From: Candidatus Zixiibacteriota bacterium
GTDB taxonomy: Bacteria > Zixibacteria > MSB-5A5 > GN15 > FEB-12
Length of the DNA: 64,000 bases
Direction: 5' to 3'
Assembly (NCBI GenBank): GCA_028289585.1
Contig: JANQPI010000010.1
Span: 186,001 to 250,000 of the forward strand
Shown here: positions 35,874-45,833 of the stretch, piece after piece
Numbering within the stretch: the stretch's first letter is position 1
Layout: every line of letters begins with the position of its first letter
The notes under the pieces: model-generated
Database searches by the model: none
Seen by the model: the letters and a program-made list of their open reading frames with translations, nothing else
Told to the model about the DNA's origin: nothing
Made by a program: the position numbers and the translations under genes

Positions 35874-38456
35874 TTAGAACTGATATCCGACTTCGATATA
35901 CCACCGTTTGCTACCGTCTCGGGCCCGGCCCCAACCGCCAATCGCGGGTCCCAATGGGGAATCGAGCCCAAGGAACGCTCCCCAACCGGTGCGGAAGTTG
36001 TCGGGCTTGATTTCCTCTGACTGCGAGTACACATCCCCCCAGTCGAAGCGACCGATCAGGCGAAGTCCGAACGGACCGTCGAGACGCAGACGCTGACTAA
36101 GAACCAGAAGTTTGTCTCCGGCCAATTGATGTGTTCGGTAGCCGGCGAAAGAGTGCAGGCCACCCAGATAGAATTGCTCGGTTGGCGGCAGTCCCGAACG
36201 GGAGAGTCCAATCGCGGTTGACGGTAGCCAGTAGACGGATGGGGCGATCCGGAGCGCTGCCTCTGCGGTTGCCTGCCAGCGTGTGAATTCGACGTCACCG
36301 CCGACTACTCGGCCGGTCAAATCGACAACGGAATTGATGCGAACACCCGACCGCGGAAAGGGAATGCGATCAAAGTTGTCGAGCGAAAGGCGAAAATAGA
36401 GCGTCGAAAGGTTGAAGATTCCGGTTCCGTTGGGCGGTTCCGTGTCAAACTCGACCCGTTCAAAGCGCAATCCGCCCCCCAATGTGCCTAGTCGTGACAG
36501 TTGCTGTCCAAGATAGAATTCGGCCCCCCACCGGGATTCGTTTCGTTCCGCGGTTTCAGCATTATCGGCTGCGAAGACTCGTCGTTCGAGTCGATCGTAA
36601 TAGCCGCGCAGGCGGGCGGTGAAATACGTGAAGAAGATGCGATCAAGATTGAGGCTGCCTCCGAAGTACAATCGGTCCGGTCCAACTCGAGCCGTCCCTC
36701 CACCCTGCAGACCGATGCCGAAGAGATTGTCGTCGAGGAGTTCCAGAAACTCTTCCGAAGCGAACTCATCATGCCAGTGCCAACCCAGGCGAACTTGCGT
36801 GGCAGGTTTTTCGTCGACGCCAATGGTTAGGACCGCACCTGAGTCCGCGGGTGCTAGTTCGGCCGTCACCCGTGTGAAGAGCCCGGTCGCAAAGAGATTG
36901 GTGATCCCATCGCGAATAGAGGAGGAGCGGTAGACTTCACCGACGGTAATCGGGAGATACGACCGAATCAACCAGTCGCGTGCGCGCTGATTACCGGTGA
37001 CATCAATACGGGCAATTCTCCCCTCATCGACGGTCGCTTGAACAGTTCCAGTTGTTGAGTCGTACCGAACACGTTTTATGACGGCGAGATCGTAGCCGGC
37101 TCGACGGTAGCCGGCAGAGATTTCGTCAAGACACGCTCGCACGCTACTCGCTGACGGGAAGTGGCGGTCGATATCACAGGCTAGTTGCGGTTGCACCTCA
37201 GCGAGAACGCCGTTCGCCGAGAGGGACAGGCGATAGCCGTCAGCAGGAGCGGCGGTACTATCGATCGATACCTGTATCTGACAGGCATCTGTCGTTGCCC
37301 CGGTGACACGAGCGCTGGCCTGTCGCCAGTTGGCGTCCTCGGCGCGTTCAGTGAGGTAGCGATGCAGGGTGCCTGACGGTAACGCTACTGTCGATGGCCC
37401 CACCTCGCTCTCAACACAGACGTGACCACTGTCAGCTGCTTGTCGCTGACGGAGGGCTTCGCGAATTCGCGGCACGGCCGCTTGGCCGGCCGCATAACCG
37501 ATGGCAATGAGTTCCTTCCGCTCCGTAAACGATGATGCCGTGTACGCTCCCAGGTCCGGTGCAATGACTACGTCGGCCTGCGCCAGTTGCTCGGCGAGCC
37601 GATCGGCGGACATGATCGTCGTAACCTGGCCGGCAACGTCAACGGGAGTCACGATCTCCGCTTTACTTGAAAGGGGTGAAGTGACATCAACAGCGACGAC
37701 AGCAGCTTGTGGTGTGGCGAGCGTACGCGCAAGTGTGACGGGAATCGGCATCACTATTCCACCGTCCATCAGTACCTGGCCGTCCCGCTCTACGCCGGTG
37801 AACGCCAGGGGGAAGGCCATTGTCGCACGCATGGCGTCGACCAGTGAACCGCTGTCGAAGACGATGGCCTGACCTGAAACGATATCAGTGGCGACCGTAC
37901 GAAACGGGATCGTGAGTCGATCAAAATCACCCTGAGCACGATAGACGGCCTCATTGGTGAGTGCGGTGAAGAGTGTGGTGATTTCCTGCGCATCGGAAAG
38001 CGCGGTCGGGATGACCGGTCGCCAGTTGTCGAAGCGTAGTGCGATTAAGTGTCGTTCAGCGTCACTCCGTCGTGTCGCCAGCATACTGCGGCGCTCCGGC
38101 GCGTTGGCGAAAAGTCGGGAGAGATCGAGACTTGTGATCAGTGAGTCGATCTCATCGACGGTATAGCCGCACGCGTATAGCCCGCCAATAATCCCGCCGA
38201 TCGATGTCCCCGCGATACCGGTCACGGTGATCTGCGCCTCTTCGAGGGCTCGAAGCAAGCCGACGATCGCGATACCGCGCGCCCCGCCACCGGACAGAGC
38301 TAGCGTAATCGGGTAGTCTGCGGTATCGGCTTGAGATGGTCCCGCGAGCGCATCGTAGGATGCTACGACCTCCTCCGCCACGACGGTCGGTACGTGCAGC
38401 GTGCCGAGGACGAGCATGAGGACGATGAGCAATCGGGTTTTCGCTTGCCTGCTCAC
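35874..38456 (-). CDS. patatin-like phospholipase with POTRA and Omp85 barrel (type Vd autotransporter-like)
   Basis: 860-residue outer-membrane protein. Signal peptide from the GTG at 38456 (ending VPTVVA); patatin domain about 45-330 with intact oxyanion loop GGGARG, nucleophile motif GTSIGG and catalytic aspartate MDGG. A linker with two POTRA-like segments (AGYRRAGYDLAVIKRV, EGRIARIDVTGN) and a BamA/FhaC-type barrel (LGGLHSFAGYR ... YIEVGYQF) follow. PlpD of Pseudomonas has this layout and secretes its lipase domain. An upstream TTG frame to 38501 is possible but adds residues before the signal peptide. Only 27 bases separate it from the divergent methyltransferase gene. Confidence 0.88.
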   Translation of the reverse strand: MSRQAKTRLLIVLMLVLGTLHVPTVVAEEVVASYDALAGPSQADTADYPITLALSGGGARGIAIVGLLRALEEAQITVTGIAGTSIGGIIGGLYACGYTVDEIDSLITSLDLSRLFANAPERRSMLATRRSDAERHLIALRFDNWRPVIPTALSDAQEITTLFTALTNEAVYRAQGDFDRLTIPFRTVATDIVSGQAIVFDSGSLVDAMRATMAFPLAFTGVERDGQVLMDGGIVMPIPVTLARTLATPQAAVVAVDVTSPLSSKAEIVTPVDVAGQVTTIMSADRLAEQLAQADVVIAPDLGAYTASSFTERKELIAIGYAAGQAAVPRIREALRQRQAADSGHVCVESEVGPSTVALPSGTLHRYLTERAEDANWRQASARVTGATTDACQIQVSIDSTAAPADGYRLSLSANGVLAEVQPQLACDIDRHFPSASSVRACLDEISAGYRRAGYDLAVIKRVRYDSTTGTVQATVDEGRIARIDVTGNQRARDWLIRSYLPITVGEVYRSSSIRDGITNLFATGLFTRVTAELAPADSGAVLTIGVDEKPATQVRLGWHWHDEFASEEFLELLDDNLFGIGLQGGGTARVGPDRLYFGGSLNLDRIFFTYFTARLRGYYDRLERRVFAADNAETAERNESRWGAEFYLGQQLSRLGTLGGGLRFERVEFDTEPPNGTGIFNLSTLYFRLSLDNFDRIPFPRSGVRINSVVDLTGRVVGGDVEFTRWQATAEAALRIAPSVYWLPSTAIGLSRSGLPPTEQFYLGGLHSFAGYRTHQLAGDKLLVLSQRLRLDGPFGLRLIGRFDWGDVYSQSEEIKPDNFRTGWGAFLGLDSPLGPAIGGWGRARDGSKRWYIEVGYQF

Positions 38457-38483
38457 CTGCCGATCCGGTTCCTTTTCGAAGTC

Positions 38484-39281
38484 ATGATCTTCCGAGCTCA
38501 AGAAACCCGGCCGCTAACGCAGAACGAGTTAAAAACGTGGCGGGAGCTTGGCCGTCGCCGGGTGCGTCGTTCGGAACAGGCGTTTCTGGCCGAGGGGGTC
38601 CGCCTGATCGATGAGTCGTTGCGGGCGGACGTCCAGCCCGAGATCGTCCTGTATCAGAATGAGCTTGCCGCAGCGGCCCAGGATCTAGTTGCTCAGTTAA
38701 TGTCGCAGGGGGTGCCGACCCGCTGTATTCCTCAGCGACAATTGGAGCGCATTGCAGATACCGAAACAAGTCAAGGGCTCCTGGCACGCTACCGAATGCA
38801 TACCGTTTCGCCGGCCGAACTTTTTACCCCCCGTGCTCGTACGGTCGTACTGATAGACAGTGTGATCGATCCCGGCAATCTTGGCACGCTGATCCGCTCA
38901 GCTATCGCCTTCGGTGTTTCCGACATTGCTATTGCCGGCGATGGTGCCGCCGATCCGTTTGGTCCCAAAGTCGTCCGAGCAACGTCGGGGGCGCTGTTTC
39001 GGAGCCGCATCGCCATCGACGAACGGGAGGAGATCCGCAACGCGGCTCGCACGGCCGGTTACATCGTTGTTGTGGCTGATCTCGACGGTTTCGAAACGTG
39101 GCCGGAACCCGATCCGGAGCATATGCTGCTGATCATTGGGGGGGAGACGGCCGGAGTGAATCGGTACTGGCGACAGAGTGCCGATCACATCATCGCGGTT
39201 CGACAAACCGATCGGATCGATTCGCTGAACGCCGCGATTGCGGGGTCCATTCTGATGCATGGAAGGTTCGTTCGTGGATAA
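38484..39281 (+). CDS. TrmH/SpoU-family RNA 2'-O-methyltransferase
   Basis: 265-residue SPOUT methyltransferase for rRNA or tRNA ribose methylation. An N-terminal substrate-binding domain (RRSEQAFLAEGVRLIDESL) precedes the SPOUT domain with motif 1 DPGNLGTLIRSA, motif 2 IIGGETAGV and motif 3 DSLNAAIAGSIL, all intact. The target nucleotide cannot be told. The start at 38484 is the first sensible ATG after the divergent patatin gene. The next gene starts inside its 3' end. Confidence 0.88.
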   Translation: MIFRAQETRPLTQNELKTWRELGRRRVRRSEQAFLAEGVRLIDESLRADVQPEIVLYQNELAAAAQDLVAQLMSQGVPTRCIPQRQLERIADTETSQGLLARYRMHTVSPAELFTPRARTVVLIDSVIDPGNLGTLIRSAIAFGVSDIAIAGDGAADPFGPKVVRATSGALFRSRIAIDEREEIRNAARTAGYIVVVADLDGFETWPEPDPEHMLLIIGGETAGVNRYWRQSADHIIAVRQTDRIDSLNAAIAGSILMHGRFVRG

Positions 39282-40332
39282 ACGCTCGTTATGTTTTCTT
39301 CTCACATTCTGCGTTGCCGTTAGCACGGCTCACACGCAGGATTTGGTGGAGCGAGAATCTGGTGTCTGGGTCAGTGATTCACTCGGTATAGAACTGAATC
39401 GGCTCAGCAAGAATCGAATGATCATTCGTGCGGCAGAAAGCTTGGGCGGCAAGCTTGAGATCATTACCGGCGATCAGGAGAATGTGCAGCTGGCATATCG
39501 CAAGGTCGCCCGCACAGCATCACGCCGTACGGCATTCGACTATATTGATCTTATCACCGTCAATCTGACAACAACCGGAGCGGGGAGCAGGCTGGAACTG
39601 CGAGCGCCCAATCCTCCTCCCTGGGATCGAGAAACGGAATCCGGTCAGATTGAGGCGATTCTGCGTGTCCCTGTTGACATCGAGGTCGAAGTCCAGGCGA
39701 CCTATTTCGACATCGAGGCACGTGGACCGTTCCGATCGGTCAGTGTACCGGCATCGCTCGGACGACTGAGCGTCTCGCGCGTCAGTCAGAAACTGGAGTT
39801 ATCGACCGCCAACCGGAGAGTCGAAATCCGTGATATCATTGGTGAAATCCGCGTGTCGACATCGAACGCTTCGCTGATTGCCGAAACCGTTCGCGCTGTC
39901 GGGGCGCAGGCAAGTTTTCGCAATGAAGCGGGTGAGATTCGGCTCGAGGATGTCGAAGGTTCCCTGAACGTTCGCAATGCGTTTGCGCGGACGGCCATCT
40001 ATGACTACCGGGCGACCGATGTGACAACGCTGATTCGCAATTCATCGGGACCTATAGAGTTAAACGTCCTCGAATTCTCGGGGGGACAACTCGTTCTGTC
40101 GAATCGTCACGAGGACATTGATATTCTGCTACCTGATAATGTTTCTGCCTATCTCTCCCTGGCCGTAGATACCGACGGTCGTATTGAAACGAGCGGATTG
40201 CGACTCCAGCCTGACCTTATTCAGCGAGACCGTCTATCGGCGATTGCCGGTGAAGGAACCGCGGACGTCGATGCGTCGATTCGCGGTACCGGCAACATAT
40301 TTGTCCGGGGAACTCGAAAGGATCTCGATTAA
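39274..40332 (+). CDS. exported DUF4097-like adhesin-fold protein
   Basis: 352-residue exported protein. A signal peptide (KRSLCFLLTFCVAVSTAHT) precedes a repetitive beta-strand body (LSVSRVSQKLELSTANRRVEIRD, GEIRVSTSNASLIAETVRA, GEIRLEDVEGSLNVRNA) like DUF4097/DUF4098 beta-helices. Function of this family is unknown. I chose the GTG at 39274 with GGAAGG 7 bases upstream; an ATG at 39259 lies in the methyltransferase gene. Its TAA overlaps the ATG of the barrel-SppA fusion (TAATG), so the two are coupled. Confidence 0.7.
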   Translation: MDKRSLCFLLTFCVAVSTAHTQDLVERESGVWVSDSLGIELNRLSKNRMIIRAAESLGGKLEIITGDQENVQLAYRKVARTASRRTAFDYIDLITVNLTTTGAGSRLELRAPNPPPWDRETESGQIEAILRVPVDIEVEVQATYFDIEARGPFRSVSVPASLGRLSVSRVSQKLELSTANRRVEIRDIIGEIRVSTSNASLIAETVRAVGAQASFRNEAGEIRLEDVEGSLNVRNAFARTAIYDYRATDVTTLIRNSSGPIELNVLEFSGGQLVLSNRHEDIDILLPDNVSAYLSLAVDTDGRIETSGLRLQPDLIQRDRLSAIAGEGTADVDASIRGTGNIFVRGTRKDLD

Positions 40333-42749
40333 TGCGAATTCGCTACTTGATCGCACTGGTGCTGATCGTGCCCGGCTGCCTGGCTCAGGAGATAGCTGAT
40401 CGGCTACTTATCCCCGATGGTATCTTCTACTACCGGCCGGCGGCGACGGTATCCGGAGCCGAGGCTACCTGGGTCAATCCGGCCGCTCTGCATCGCTATC
40501 CGAATGGCATCGTCCAGGTGATGGGTGATTTTGCCGACGGTTCAACACTGGAGAGCTACGGTGTGGCGATTACCGGCGATCGTGTTGGTCTAGCCTATCG
40601 CTATGTTGATCTGCCGGCGACGGAATCGATTCGGGAGTTCGTGTTTGCCGGTGGCTCAGGCTTTGGTCCGCAGATCGCGGTGGGTGGGTCCTATCGATGG
40701 TTTCGGAATGGTCCACCTGAACTGCGTCGTCAGCACCTCTGGAATGCCGCTCTCCTCGCTCCCATTGGTCAGACGTTTCAGTTCGCATCGGTCTTCTCCA
40801 ATCTGAATCGGGCCGACCGGGCTGGTGATGAGACCGAAGTTGAAATGCGCTATTCGCTCGGGTACCGTCCTCTCCGTGGACAGCAATTGACACTCGCGGC
40901 GGATATGTTCCTGTCGACGGGGAACAAGCTCTCCGAGGCGGATTTCGTCTATTATGCGGAAGCGAATCCGTCGCGGGGCATCTACCTCAATGGAACGGTC
41001 GACAACGATGGTAACTGGCAGGCGGGTGTTCGCGTTAATCTGTTACGTTACTTCGTTGGTGGTCAGAGCCAGTTTGCTGATGGCGATCATCGTCGGACGA
41101 CGGCATATGTCGGGTTCTCGGCGCTTCGGCAGCCGTCGGTTATTCCCGAGTCACCGCAGCGAATCCTGGCGCGCTTTGGAGGCTTTGGCGAAAACCCAAC
41201 CCGTTATCTCTTCGGCCCTCGTCCGGTCGGCTATCTGCGCAATCTTATCACGCTCGATCGGGCGGTGCATGACCCCGGTGTATCCGAAGTCCTGCTTGTC
41301 ATAAGTTCGACTCCAGGCGTGGCGCAAGCCCAGGAGCTGCGACGGGCAATCAGCGATGCCCGGTCTCATGGCAAGCACGTGACGGTCTATCTCAAGCGGG
41401 CGAACGATCTGACATACTACGTAGCCGCCGCGGCCAACCGCATCATCATGCCGCCGGTCTCACGACTCGACCTCAACGGATTGGCTGTCGATCTGACCTA
41501 CTACGCCGGGGTGTTGGCGAAGGTCGGTGTTTCCCTTGATTTGGTTCGGATTGCCGAATACAAGACGGCTCCGGAACGGTACACGCGCACCGGCCCGACC
41601 CCGGAAGCCTCGGCACAGATGAACCGGCTGCTCGATAACTGGTTTGACATGTTGACCGACGGTATCGCGTCGGGTCGTTCTCTGTCACCGGACTCGGTGC
41701 GGGCGCTTATCGACATCGGACCCTTCACTTCGATTGACGCGGTGTCAGTGGGATTAATCGATACGTTGATGTATGCCGACGTGCTGACTCGGGGTGGCTA
41801 TCATTCCGGTGGCGGCTTTGTTTCTCTGTCGCGCTATCGAGCGGACACCCTAGTGAATACCAGTTGGCGTTTCCGACCACGCCTCGCGGTCGTCGTTGCC
41901 GAAGGGGAGATTGCCCAGGGAGCCAGTCAACCACTGTTCGGACCGCGGGGTCAGGTCAGCCCTGGATTGATGGCTCGCGGCTTCGGCCAGGCGGAGGGTG
42001 ATCCATATGCGCGTGGGATTATCTTTAGAATCAACTCACCAGGCGGGGGAGCGTTTGCCGGCGAAGGAATTCATCGGACCGTTGATCGTTCCGGGAGTCG
42101 CCGACCGCTCACCGTATCGATTGGCAATACCGCCGCATCGGGAGGGATGTACATCGCAACCCCTGCTGCCACCTGGATCTCGTCGTCCGGCTCGTCGACG
42201 GGATCGATTGGCATTTACGGCGGGAAAGCAGACTTCTCGGGTCTGTACGAAAAACTCGATGTCGGCACGGCGCTTTACACGCGAGGCCGTCTCTCGGCGA
42301 TGATGTCGACAGCCCGTCCGTTTACTGATGAGGAACGCGAGAAGTATCGAGACCAACTACGCGCGTTTTACGATCACTTTGTCGACCTCGTCGCCACGAG
42401 TCGTGACCTGTCCGTCGACTCTATTGACGCTATCGGTCGAGGGCAGGTCTGGACTGGCCGGGAAGCTCTGGCAATTGGTCTGGTAGATGACACTACCGGT
42501 TGGCAGGGGGCGGTCGCGGCGGCGGCCGAATCGGCAGGACTAACGGGGCGCGACTTCGACATTGCTGTGTATCCGACAAAACGGTCGCTTCTGCCTTTAC
42601 CAGCGTTTTCCATCCTCGACGTTGCTACCGGTTGGTTGCGCGGCAGCTCACAGGAAGCACCCGTGCCCGCAGATCCTCTGACCCGCTTTCTGGATTCAGA
42701 CGGGGAGCTGATGCTGATGCGCATGCCGTTTGATATCCACCTTCACTGA
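40332..42749 (+). CDS. outer-membrane-barrel/SppA fusion (S49 peptidase)
   Basis: 805 residues. Signal peptide MRIRYLIALVLIVPGCLA; residues about 20-275 look like an outer-membrane barrel (GAEATWVNPAALHRYP as in PorV/FadL starts, then alternating strands YGVAITGDRVGLAYRYV, WQAGVRVNLLRYFVGG). Residues about 285-750 are the two tandem S49 domains of 67-kDa SppA. The lysine of the first half (EYKTAPERY, K411) and serine of the second (TAASGGMYIA, S603) are 192 apart, against 200 (K209, S409) in E. coli SppA, so the dyad is intact. SppA normally sits on the inner membrane; this copy would be displayed at the outer membrane. Followed by a terminator. Confidence 0.82.
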   Translation: MRIRYLIALVLIVPGCLAQEIADRLLIPDGIFYYRPAATVSGAEATWVNPAALHRYPNGIVQVMGDFADGSTLESYGVAITGDRVGLAYRYVDLPATESIREFVFAGGSGFGPQIAVGGSYRWFRNGPPELRRQHLWNAALLAPIGQTFQFASVFSNLNRADRAGDETEVEMRYSLGYRPLRGQQLTLAADMFLSTGNKLSEADFVYYAEANPSRGIYLNGTVDNDGNWQAGVRVNLLRYFVGGQSQFADGDHRRTTAYVGFSALRQPSVIPESPQRILARFGGFGENPTRYLFGPRPVGYLRNLITLDRAVHDPGVSEVLLVISSTPGVAQAQELRRAISDARSHGKHVTVYLKRANDLTYYVAAAANRIIMPPVSRLDLNGLAVDLTYYAGVLAKVGVSLDLVRIAEYKTAPERYTRTGPTPEASAQMNRLLDNWFDMLTDGIASGRSLSPDSVRALIDIGPFTSIDAVSVGLIDTLMYADVLTRGGYHSGGGFVSLSRYRADTLVNTSWRFRPRLAVVVAEGEIAQGASQPLFGPRGQVSPGLMARGFGQAEGDPYARGIIFRINSPGGGAFAGEGIHRTVDRSGSRRPLTVSIGNTAASGGMYIATPAATWISSSGSSTGSIGIYGGKADFSGLYEKLDVGTALYTRGRLSAMMSTARPFTDEEREKYRDQLRAFYDHFVDLVATSRDLSVDSIDAIGRGQVWTGREALAIGLVDDTTGWQGAVAAAAESAGLTGRDFDIAVYPTKRSLLPLPAFSILDVATGWLRGSSQEAPVPADPLTRFLDSDGELMLMRMPFDIHLH

Positions 42750-42817: not shown

Positions 42818-44500
42818 TTAGAACGTTACACTGATGTCGTCCTCGACGTAGCCGGTGGCCGCTTCGTCGGCATACCCGACGTAGTCCTGCTGCCAGCCGA
42901 CGCGCTGGAACACGCGCACCAGCGGCGTGGCCGGAGGATGGTTGGCCGGATCGTCGAGATCGGTGTCGTACGACCAGTTTCGGTTCGGCGGGCTGTAGTA
43001 ACTGCCGCTCCAGTTGCCGGTCGCCTGTTCGGCATTCCACAGATTGACCGCAGAGCCACTCCAGTTGAAGTTAACACCACTCCAGACCTCGAGGAACCGT
43101 GGCAGGTTCTCGAAGCCGCCGTTGTAGTTGGAGTGCGTCGTTTCGACATTGCCGGTAAGGTACGACGCGTTAACGGTCGTTTCATCGGCCGGGCGATTCG
43201 ACTTGTTCTGGTTCGACTGGGTGTCATCCCACGCCGACGACAGGAACGTTACCGCATCGGCCATCAGCGCTGCCGCTTTCTTATCGACCGAATTGTAGTC
43301 ACCTACCGTGTACAGTGGATTCTGCGAGACGACCGTCAGGTCACCGCCGAGTTCTTCGCCGTTGGTCAGCCGCAGGGCGGGGAATTCGCCGGCTGAGGCA
43401 TCGTCGGCGAAGTAGAGAACGCCGTTATCGGGGGCAAGACCGAGGTCATACATCTGTCGAACGTTCAGATTGGTCGTTTCGACGTCTGTTCCCTCACGCT
43501 GGTCGGTGAATTGGTTCGGAACGTAGTCGATAACACCGTTGGCAACCCAGGTCGCGGTGACATCGATCCAGACCGACCCGACCTGCTGTTCAACCGTACC
43601 GTTAATGATTCTGACCGACGCTTTGCGTTCGTACGATTCGGGATTGGCACCGCCGTTGTAACGTTCGATGATGTCATGCGGATCACCGGAGGCAGCGAGC
43701 GGAAGGTTCAGCTCGCTCTGTCCGTGAGCGCCATCCTGGACGCGGCCATCCCAGCGATTGATCGACTCTTCGTACCAATTAGAATCGTTGTGATCGAGCC
43801 AGTTACCACCCGAATTCATGTTCACGTAGTTGCCCGAGCCGTCCTTGATAAGAACGTCACCGCTAGCGACCGATCCCGGACCTTTTCGTCCGTGGAGAAT
43901 CTCGCCCGAGGCGGTGACAAACGACTCCATCCGCAGCGAGTTGCCGGCCTGCAGCCAGAGGTTACCATTGGAATGGACCCGTCCCACCAGGTTCATGTCC
44001 GGTCCCGGGGCAATTTCAAGATCGTTGCCGTAGAAGACTGCAAACTGGAAGATCGGAATGGTTGCGACCTCAAAGTTCTGCGAGACCTTCACCGTGGCAT
44101 GATCAAGGGTGTTGATCGATGCTGCCGTAACCGTATACGATTTCACCTGAGCGTTGAGTCCCGCTAGCGTACCCTGGCTGAGCGCCCGCTGCTGCGGAGC
44201 GCCATCATCCGTCACACGCCACGCTACGATCGATCCGTTGAGCGAATCAATTCCCGATGGCATGACCGACGGCGGCGCGTTGGTCGAGTCCCAGTGGTTC
44301 TGGAGATTTGCCGTGGCAGCCTCGAGGCCGGCCTCGGCGGCGTAGAACGACCGCATCTCCTGGAGTTGGTTGCCCGCAATGGTCATTTCGTCATCCGATG
44401 TCGACAGTGCCGCGATCCCGAGGAGCGTCAGCATGCCGACCATGATGAGCGCAATGATGGCGGCCACACCGCGTTCGTTGTTGAGTGTTGCTCGTGTCAT
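42818..44500 (-). CDS. PilX-type minor pilin / pilus assembly protein
   Basis: 560 residues. A PilX N-terminal segment, GVAAIIALIMVGMLTLLGIAALSTSDDEMTIAGNQLQEMRSFYAAEAGLEAA, has the hydrophobic pilin helix and the YAAEAG hallmark. The body is a large, glycine- and asparagine-rich extracellular domain, much longer than the roughly 200 residues of typical PilX. It would join the tip of a type IV pilus or pseudopilus. ATG at 44500 with AGGCAGG upstream; 37 bases after pilW. Ends at the shared terminator. Confidence 0.8.
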   Translation of the reverse strand: MTRATLNNERGVAAIIALIMVGMLTLLGIAALSTSDDEMTIAGNQLQEMRSFYAAEAGLEAATANLQNHWDSTNAPPSVMPSGIDSLNGSIVAWRVTDDGAPQQRALSQGTLAGLNAQVKSYTVTAASINTLDHATVKVSQNFEVATIPIFQFAVFYGNDLEIAPGPDMNLVGRVHSNGNLWLQAGNSLRMESFVTASGEILHGRKGPGSVASGDVLIKDGSGNYVNMNSGGNWLDHNDSNWYEESINRWDGRVQDGAHGQSELNLPLAASGDPHDIIERYNGGANPESYERKASVRIINGTVEQQVGSVWIDVTATWVANGVIDYVPNQFTDQREGTDVETTNLNVRQMYDLGLAPDNGVLYFADDASAGEFPALRLTNGEELGGDLTVVSQNPLYTVGDYNSVDKKAAALMADAVTFLSSAWDDTQSNQNKSNRPADETTVNASYLTGNVETTHSNYNGGFENLPRFLEVWSGVNFNWSGSAVNLWNAEQATGNWSGSYYSPPNRNWSYDTDLDDPANHPPATPLVRVFQRVGWQQDYVGYADEAATGYVEDDISVTF

Positions 44501-44537
44501 AGTCTGCCTGCCTTTGCCAACAGCCGTGAGCTCCGCT

Positions 44538-45365
44538 CTACGACTGAATGATATTCCTGACATTCACCGACGATTCGTATGTCCGCAGCCGGTAGAACGC
44601 GCTGTCGGTGGTATAATCCGGATTGGCCGATCGAGCGGTCACGGTAATTAGAACCTCGACGACGTCCTCGACCAGCGGCGGAACGTCAACGATCAGGCCA
44701 TTGGAGAGGCGATACTGGAACTGCAAATCCGAAATGTTCTCGGCGTATTTCACCGGTGCCTGACCGGGCATCTCGACCATCAAGGCCGGTGATGCGGTAT
44801 CGGTCACGTTGTCGATATAGAACTTCACCTGGTACATCTTGAGGACGATGGCATCGGCGCCATAGGGCCGCGACAGCGGATGCGCGCCGTGCTGCAGCAA
44901 CTGGGCTCCGGTTTGGACGTTGGAGAGCTCAAACCACTCGCCACCACCCGAATCGGGTTCGAAGATGTAAATCCAGTCGCCGGCGTCGAAACAATCAACC
45001 GCCGTTGCGCACTGGATGTCCGACACCACCGAAGCCATATCGACCGAGAGGTATGAGTCGCAATCCTCAGTCTGATACATGATGGTGATCGTGTCCGGAT
45101 TAGTGTTGGCGGCGATGATCGGATCCATCTGCACCGCGACACCGTAGCCGGCCATCCGAATCTGTTTGGTGAGTTCGTCGATCGCCGCGCGCGCCGATTG
45201 TTGCACGGTGCGTACATCGTCCTGCACCATGTAGTTTTGATGCTGGGTGATGTAGGCGCGCAGAATCGCCGTCGTTACAACGCCCATGATGGCGAGGGCA
45301 ATCAACACCTCCAGGAGGGAGAAGCCTGCGTTGCCGCGTCGGTGGTGGGTCTGTTTCGCTTTCAT
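44538..45365 (-). CDS. PilW-family minor pilin (prepilin)
   Basis: 275 residues with a class III prepilin signal: short basic leader, then GFSLLEVLIALAIMGVVTTAILRAY, with cleavage after the glycine before FSLLE and glutamate at mature position 5. The rest (SARAAIDELTKQIRMAGYG) is characteristic of PilW. Processed by prepilin peptidase and built into a type IV pilus. GAGGA lies 9 bases before the ATG. Middle gene of pilV-pilW-pilX. Confidence 0.87.
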   Translation of the reverse strand: MKAKQTHHRRGNAGFSLLEVLIALAIMGVVTTAILRAYITQHQNYMVQDDVRTVQQSARAAIDELTKQIRMAGYGVAVQMDPIIAANTNPDTITIMYQTEDCDSYLSVDMASVVSDIQCATAVDCFDAGDWIYIFEPDSGGGEWFELSNVQTGAQLLQHGAHPLSRPYGADAIVLKMYQVKFYIDNVTDTASPALMVEMPGQAPVKYAENISDLQFQYRLSNGLIVDVPPLVEDVVEVLITVTARSANPDYTTDSAFYRLRTYESSVNVRNIIQS

Positions 45366-45419
45366 ATCGTTACATCCTCAGATGACTGATTATCCGTTGA
45401 ACGCTTCCGTTGTGATACG

Positions 45420-45785
45420 TTAGGTGGTATCAACACGGACATATGTTGTCATGATGTCGGAGATCGTATCTCCGTTGATGTCGGTGTACACGGCTTGGAC
45501 GTCGATCCGCCGCAGGAACGAACCCTGCGAGGCAACACGCCAGTTGCGTACAACCTCGCCGACCGTGTCGGTACCGCCGGTCAGGGCCATGGTGCCGCGC
45601 AGTTCCTCGATCTTGTCCTGCATCAACTGAACTGACCGCGTCGTCTTGTTCGACCAGTCGTTTGCGTCCAGGGCGATCATCGCCATGTTCATGAGGAGCA
45701 GCAGTGAGATCGTGAGGATCAGCATTGAGACAAGTACTTCCAGCAGCGTGACGCCGCGTTCTGTAGCGATTTTACTCAGTCGCAT
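45420..45785 (-). CDS. PilV-family minor pilin (prepilin)
   Basis: 121-residue prepilin: RGVTLLEVLVSMLILTISLLLLMNMAM with the cleavage glycine and mature Glu5, then a short globular domain. First gene of the minor pilin operon. The ATG at 45785 follows AAAGG and lies about 21 bases after the start expected from the sigma-54-type promoter; upstream ATGs at 45803 and 45818 fall at or within the promoter and are rejected. Confidence 0.85.
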   Translation of the reverse strand: MRLSKIATERGVTLLEVLVSMLILTISLLLLMNMAMIALDANDWSNKTTRSVQLMQDKIEELRGTMALTGGTDTVGEVVRNWRVASQGSFLRRIDVQAVYTDINGDTISDIMTTYVRVDTT

Positions 45786-45813
45786 GGGTCGGACCTTTCT
45801 CATTTGACCGGGT

Positions 45814-45833
45814 CTCATGCAGCCGCCATGCCA
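45814..45833 (-). promoter_or_regulatory. sigma-54-type promoter of the minor pilin operon
   Basis: On the minus strand TGGCATGGCGGCTGCATGA has GG-N10-GC exactly (GG at 45831-45832, GC at 45819-45820). It is the best of the three sites in the window. Pilin genes in several bacteria are driven by sigma-54 with the PilR activator. A 10-bp palindrome CGACGCGTCG (45911-45920) lies about 80 bases upstream. Confidence 0.72.

Follow-up and report, generated by a model that had tools for sequence, protein, structure and literature searches.

An SppA peptidase fused to a PorV/FadL-type barrel as a candidate outer-membrane class of SppA

A single gene in the window (the whole stretch of DNA that was analysed, 64,000 nucleotides) encodes a complete tandem-domain SppA peptidase behind an N-terminal domain of the PorV/FadL barrel superfamily. 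We consider it probable that the product is an outer-membrane-tethered SppA, in which the PorV/FadL barrel stands in for the inner-membrane helix and the protease, held on the periplasmic side of the outer membrane, digests peptides there. A search of the open-access literature found no published description of an SppA–barrel fusion.

A complete SppA in one frame with a barrel-type domain

The earlier note had described this gene as a barrel fused to a tandem-domain SppA with an intact lysine/serine dyad, and both the fusion and the dyad are borne out. The 805-residue frame is open from ATG to stop (Table 1) and is matched in two stretches by Peptidase_S49 (PF01343; E = 1.9e-61). Residues 307–737 align with E. 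coli protease IV (PDB 3bez; E = 1e-39), such that K411 and S603, spaced by 192, correspond to residues 184 and 384 of the chain, the E. coli dyad; with a construct offset that we take to be 25, these are presumably K209 and S409 of E. coli. Both dyad residues are invariant in 30 of 30 close homologues and in all 77 SppA-bearing sequences across phyla, and the oxyanion-region TGSIG is kept in the cross-phylum alignment. Judged by domain and dyad, this is an S49 enzyme that would work like SppA.

By sequence, the fusion lacks two defining features of the 67K type. One is the curated score, as SppA_67K (TIGR00705) matches at E = 7e-72 with 242.6 bits, below its curated cut-off of 311.45; the other is the inner-membrane helix anchor, which is absent, the sequence and alignments giving a signal peptide and then the barrel domain. 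The domain score of TIGR00706 is above its cut-off. A cysteine within the predicted signal peptide is unconserved in the alignment, and a lipoprotein was ruled out for that reason. Beyond the S49 domains sits a tail of the RMPFDIxIE type, which may serve as a terminal strand or, as in Bacillus SppA, as a tail at the active site.

Table 1 Features of the barrel–SppA locus (window positions)
Feature	Position	Strand	Remarks
Patatin–POTRA–Omp85 fusion	35874..38501	-	Divergent; conserved neighbour
SpoU-family RNA methyltransferase	38331..39281	+	Opens the conserved block; 38331 probably lies upstream of the true start
Exported DUF4097-like protein	39259..40332	+	Stop overlaps fusion start codon (TAATG)
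Barrel–SppA fusion gene	40332..42749	+	805 aa
Signal peptide, about residues 1–18	40332..40385	+	Sequence and alignment; predicted cleavable
N-terminal hatch-like segment with WVNPAAL motif, residues 28–53	40413..40490	+	N49-P50 in 74/74; two short helices in model
PorV/FadL-type beta-barrel, residues 60–266	40509..41129	+	13 strands in model; a 14th is probable (241–249)
Linker of about 10 residues, last barrel strand to first SppA strand	41130..41159	+	Alignment
SppA N-terminal S49 domain	41160..41831	+	General base K411 (41562–41564)
SppA C-terminal S49 domain	41880..42542	+	Nucleophile S603 (42138–42140) and TGSIG
Conserved C-terminal tail, RMPFDIxIE type	42699..42746	+	R797, P799 and D801 kept in close relatives; P799 in 65/77

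The N-terminal domain belongs with PorV/FadL-type barrels

The N-terminal domain (about 240 residues) is beta-rich and carries a PorV/FadL-type WVNPA motif, the NP pair of which is present in all 74 sequences that reach that site. Direct searches were uninformative as to family: residues 20–270 alone matched nothing in Pfam or NCBIfam, no Pfam barrel model passed for the domain of the source protein, and PorV (PF19572) matched none of 23 barrel domains at E values up to 10, while single family members touched Porin_4, TraF_2, PorP_SprF and Toluene_X weakly. In profile–profile comparison, the cross-phylum barrel family (A7) matched PorV-like barrels with an hhalign probability of 98% (E = 1.7e-13), the whole domain being aligned, including the NPA motif; the phylum-only barrel profile gave a weaker and partial match (86%). 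Several of the PorV-like proteins used in this comparison come from the source genome itself and pass Pfam's PorV cut-off.

Structure prediction with AlphaFold from five sequences was uninformative for the full-length fusion; the N-terminal domain modelled separately, also from five sequences, gave a beta-meander of moderate confidence (pLDDT 57, pTM 0.64), with two short helices, 13 strands and a probable 14th. The domain was not predicted as a soluble fold: the leading Foldseek matches of this model were membrane barrels (VDAC, KdgM, OmpG, porins and a FadL homologue), though weak, none passing E = 0.001, and a PDB sequence search with the barrel profile gave no match. Alternation statistics of the domain are in line with known barrels but are also positive for the DUF4097-like protein, and so are unspecific. 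In our assessment, profile homology is stronger evidence for barrel identity than the Foldseek matches, and it is the whole-length profile match, together with the conserved NP pair, that supports the earlier reading of about 255 residues after the signal peptide as a PorV/FadL-like barrel.

The fusion is widespread and its halves have travelled together

We searched 60 relatives for counterparts of the fusion. Most genomes of the same family encode a full-length counterpart of about 800 residues (38–49% identity), and counterparts at 34–39% identity were found in two further families. With a barrel profile (A3), the domain was detected in 72 of the 78 good genomes from the phylum, which appears to be Zixibacteria, mostly in frames of 800–950 residues, and also in other phyla, where all 29 fetched loci, from 28 genomes of 20 families, have barrel and SppA in one frame. 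The barrel–SppA fusion is a broad class, not a single odd gene. Its recurrence in dozens of independent genomes means that it is due neither to chance nor to an assembly join, and the latter origin, which the earlier note had raised, was ruled out.

Pairwise distances of the barrel correlate with those of SppA (r = 0.88 for 78 sequences, with a permutation maximum of 0.19; r = 0.87 for the 27 sequences of other phyla, with a permutation maximum of 0.28), indicating that the two halves have travelled together, unshuffled. Even in the distant fusions of family f4, the barrels are homologous (hhalign E = 7.6e-18). No plasmid record covered 80% of the fusion query and, among the matches listed, coverage was of the SppA part only. 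The fusion gene is broken in two draft genomes, by a stop in one (G031:C35:17103-19498) and into two distant halves in the other (G027:C1), which may reflect decay or assembly error.

Gene neighbourhood

The last A of the upstream frame is shared with the ATG of the fusion, confirming the overlap that had been noted as translational coupling to an exported DUF4097-like gene. The DUF4097-like protein of the window has no match of its own to Pfam DUF4097 (PF13349), which matches 6 of the 21 members of its family (best E = 6.1e-10). The order of a divergent patatin–POTRA–Omp85 gene, a SpoU methyltransferase, the DUF4097-like gene and barrel–SppA is kept across the order and partly in other families of the class; the patatin–POTRA–Omp85 fusion stands beside the block in nearly all syntenic relatives. 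The DUF4097-like neighbour is thus conserved within the phylum, but the pairing is seen only there: fusions of other phyla have different neighbours, and the DUF4097 gene is therefore not required for the fusion.

Two M16 peptidase genes lie downstream of the barrel or barrel–SppA gene in families f2, f3 and f4 and in several others (for example, L070:4860-7596; also L124, L127, L131 and L133); they are absent beside the fusion gene in the window. There, PilX-like and prepilin-type (N_methyl) genes (42818–45818, reverse strand) converge on the SppA gene, and they are kept downstream in many relatives. PorV-like genes occur near the barrel–SppA gene in several genomes (L050–L052 and L097–L099), both of the phylum and of family f48 in another phylum.

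Barrel-only genes and a split gene

In family f4 and in genome G006, the syntenic position is occupied by a barrel alone (274–312 residues; L069–L075 and L078), and a second, diverged barrel–SppA gene lies elsewhere in these genomes (L060–L068). The DUF4097 gene in f4 adjoins the barrel that has no SppA.

A different arrangement was seen in family f17, sampled as two genomes of two genera (G096 and G097). In both, a frame change of -1 interrupts the gene and coincides with a run of nine T at the barrel–SppA junction (CGT TTT TTT TTG and GCT TTT TTT TTC; L128:3906-4870 and L129:3895-4890, minus strand). A frame shift at this run yields continuous proteins of 815 and 822 residues that match the whole family profile. 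The two genes share 63% DNA identity, yet both keep the run, which is the only run of at least seven T in either 9-kb locus; runs of at least nine T or A occur in other loci about once per 100 kb. Runs of nine T cause efficient slippage of bacterial RNA polymerase, which is used in Thermus dnaX (PMC5009743). On its sequence, the f17 run is a possible transcriptional slippage or programmed frameshift site, and one gene may give both barrel-only and barrel–SppA products; the alternative is a homopolymer error in both assemblies.

A model for a tethered SppA and its alternatives

In the established topology of FadL-type barrels, which have an even number of strands, a domain attached C-terminally should end up on the periplasmic side. 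Of the earlier suggestion of a surface or periplasmic-face processing device, a surface location therefore appears unsupported, and the periplasmic face stands as the best reading. We infer the location, oligomer and substrates of the protein as follows. After cleavage of the signal peptide, the compact barrel would insert into the outer membrane, substituting for the helix of classical SppA. Suspended from the barrel by the ten-residue linker, the tandem S49 domains would then lie on the periplasmic side, close against that membrane, where they probably assemble into an SppA tetramer that relies on the K411/S603 dyad. The enzyme would most likely act on peptides, either hydrophobic or unfolded, that accumulate at the outer membrane, for example signal peptides after their release and fragments of outer-membrane proteins, and the M16 peptidases encoded adjacently in several families may complete their digestion.

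The barrel could instead be a working channel that lets peptides or other hydrophobic compounds through the outer membrane, with SppA at its periplasmic opening processing incoming or outgoing material. In f4 and G006 a lone barrel occupies the syntenic locus, which implies that it has a use without the protease and agrees with this reading, as do the downstream M16 peptidases; FadL-family barrels are commonly transporters, but they can also be pure scaffolds (PMC12611786). As the barrel is short and its hatch-like start is conserved, and as neither a pore nor a substrate site can be recognised in it, we regard a channel as unlikely. Less likely still is an enzyme dedicated to maturing the DUF4097-like protein, as the earlier note had implied, or other products of the operon, such as the patatin–Omp85 protein. 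The tight translational coupling and the gene order kept in the phylum would be expected of such an enzyme; however, fusions occur in other phyla without these neighbours, and in f4 the DUF4097 gene adjoins a barrel that lacks SppA, leaving a dedicated role unsupported.

Least probable, in our estimation, is a soluble N-terminal domain of beta structure in the periplasm, which would make the fusion simply a larger secreted SppA. The moderate confidence of the model, the weak Foldseek matches and the alternation signal shared with the DUF4097-like beta protein would allow this; against it stand the homology to PorV-like barrels that the profiles show over the full domain, NPA motif included, the membrane barrels as leading fold matches, and the start of the barrel directly after the signal peptide.

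Beyond the tethered SppA, it is conceivable, though we would not expect it, that the barrel does more than anchor: a second, widespread outer-membrane SppA class would then be a cell-envelope machine of its own, with the ratio of free barrel to barrel–protease set in each lineage, by separate genes or by slippage at the run of nine T within one gene.

Comparison with known SppA and barrel proteins

E. coli SppA (protease IV; 67K, S49; PDB 3bez and 3bf0) shares with the fusion its tandem S49 domains, with the lysine in the first and the serine in the second, but is an inner-membrane protein with an N-terminal helix anchor (PMC9360617), whereas in the fusion the enzyme follows a predicted cleavable signal peptide and a barrel of outer-membrane type. 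The 36K SppA of the source genome and Bacillus-type SppA (PDB 3rst and 4kwb) have the S49 catalytic domain in common with it and differ in having a single domain, a transmembrane anchor and no barrel. PorV, FadL and TodX barrels share the NPA motif, the whole-length profile match and, as modelled, the up-and-down beta-barrel with the N-terminal domain of the fusion, which differs in its length (about 240 residues compared with 330 or more), minimal loops and C-terminal protease and has no Pfam match of its own. A precedent for a FadL barrel as scaffold in a larger machine, and not as a transporter, is BamG of the Bacteroidota BAM complex; unlike the fusion, it has no protease domain, and its partner in that complex, BamH, is a separate protein (PMC12611786).

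The fusion is best filed as a putative outer-membrane SppA class. The class is easily missed, since curated libraries recognise the SppA part alone and give the first third no label. Descriptions of SppA place the enzyme in the inner membrane; if the assignment is true, peptide clearance is organised at the outer membrane too, throughout the phylum and, outside it, in 20 families or more.

In most genomes of the phylum S49 matches three times, twice in the tandem fusion and once in a protein of about 305 residues. In the source genome, this 36K SppA (309 residues; G000:C16) begins with a transmembrane segment, so that the genome encodes an SppA of the inner membrane in addition to the fusion. 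In the periplasm, signal peptides that have been released are broken down by classical SppA, a tetramer of the inner membrane (PMC9360617). As the helix-anchored 36K SppA has been kept, the outer-membrane form probably clears peptides other than those of the 36K enzyme.
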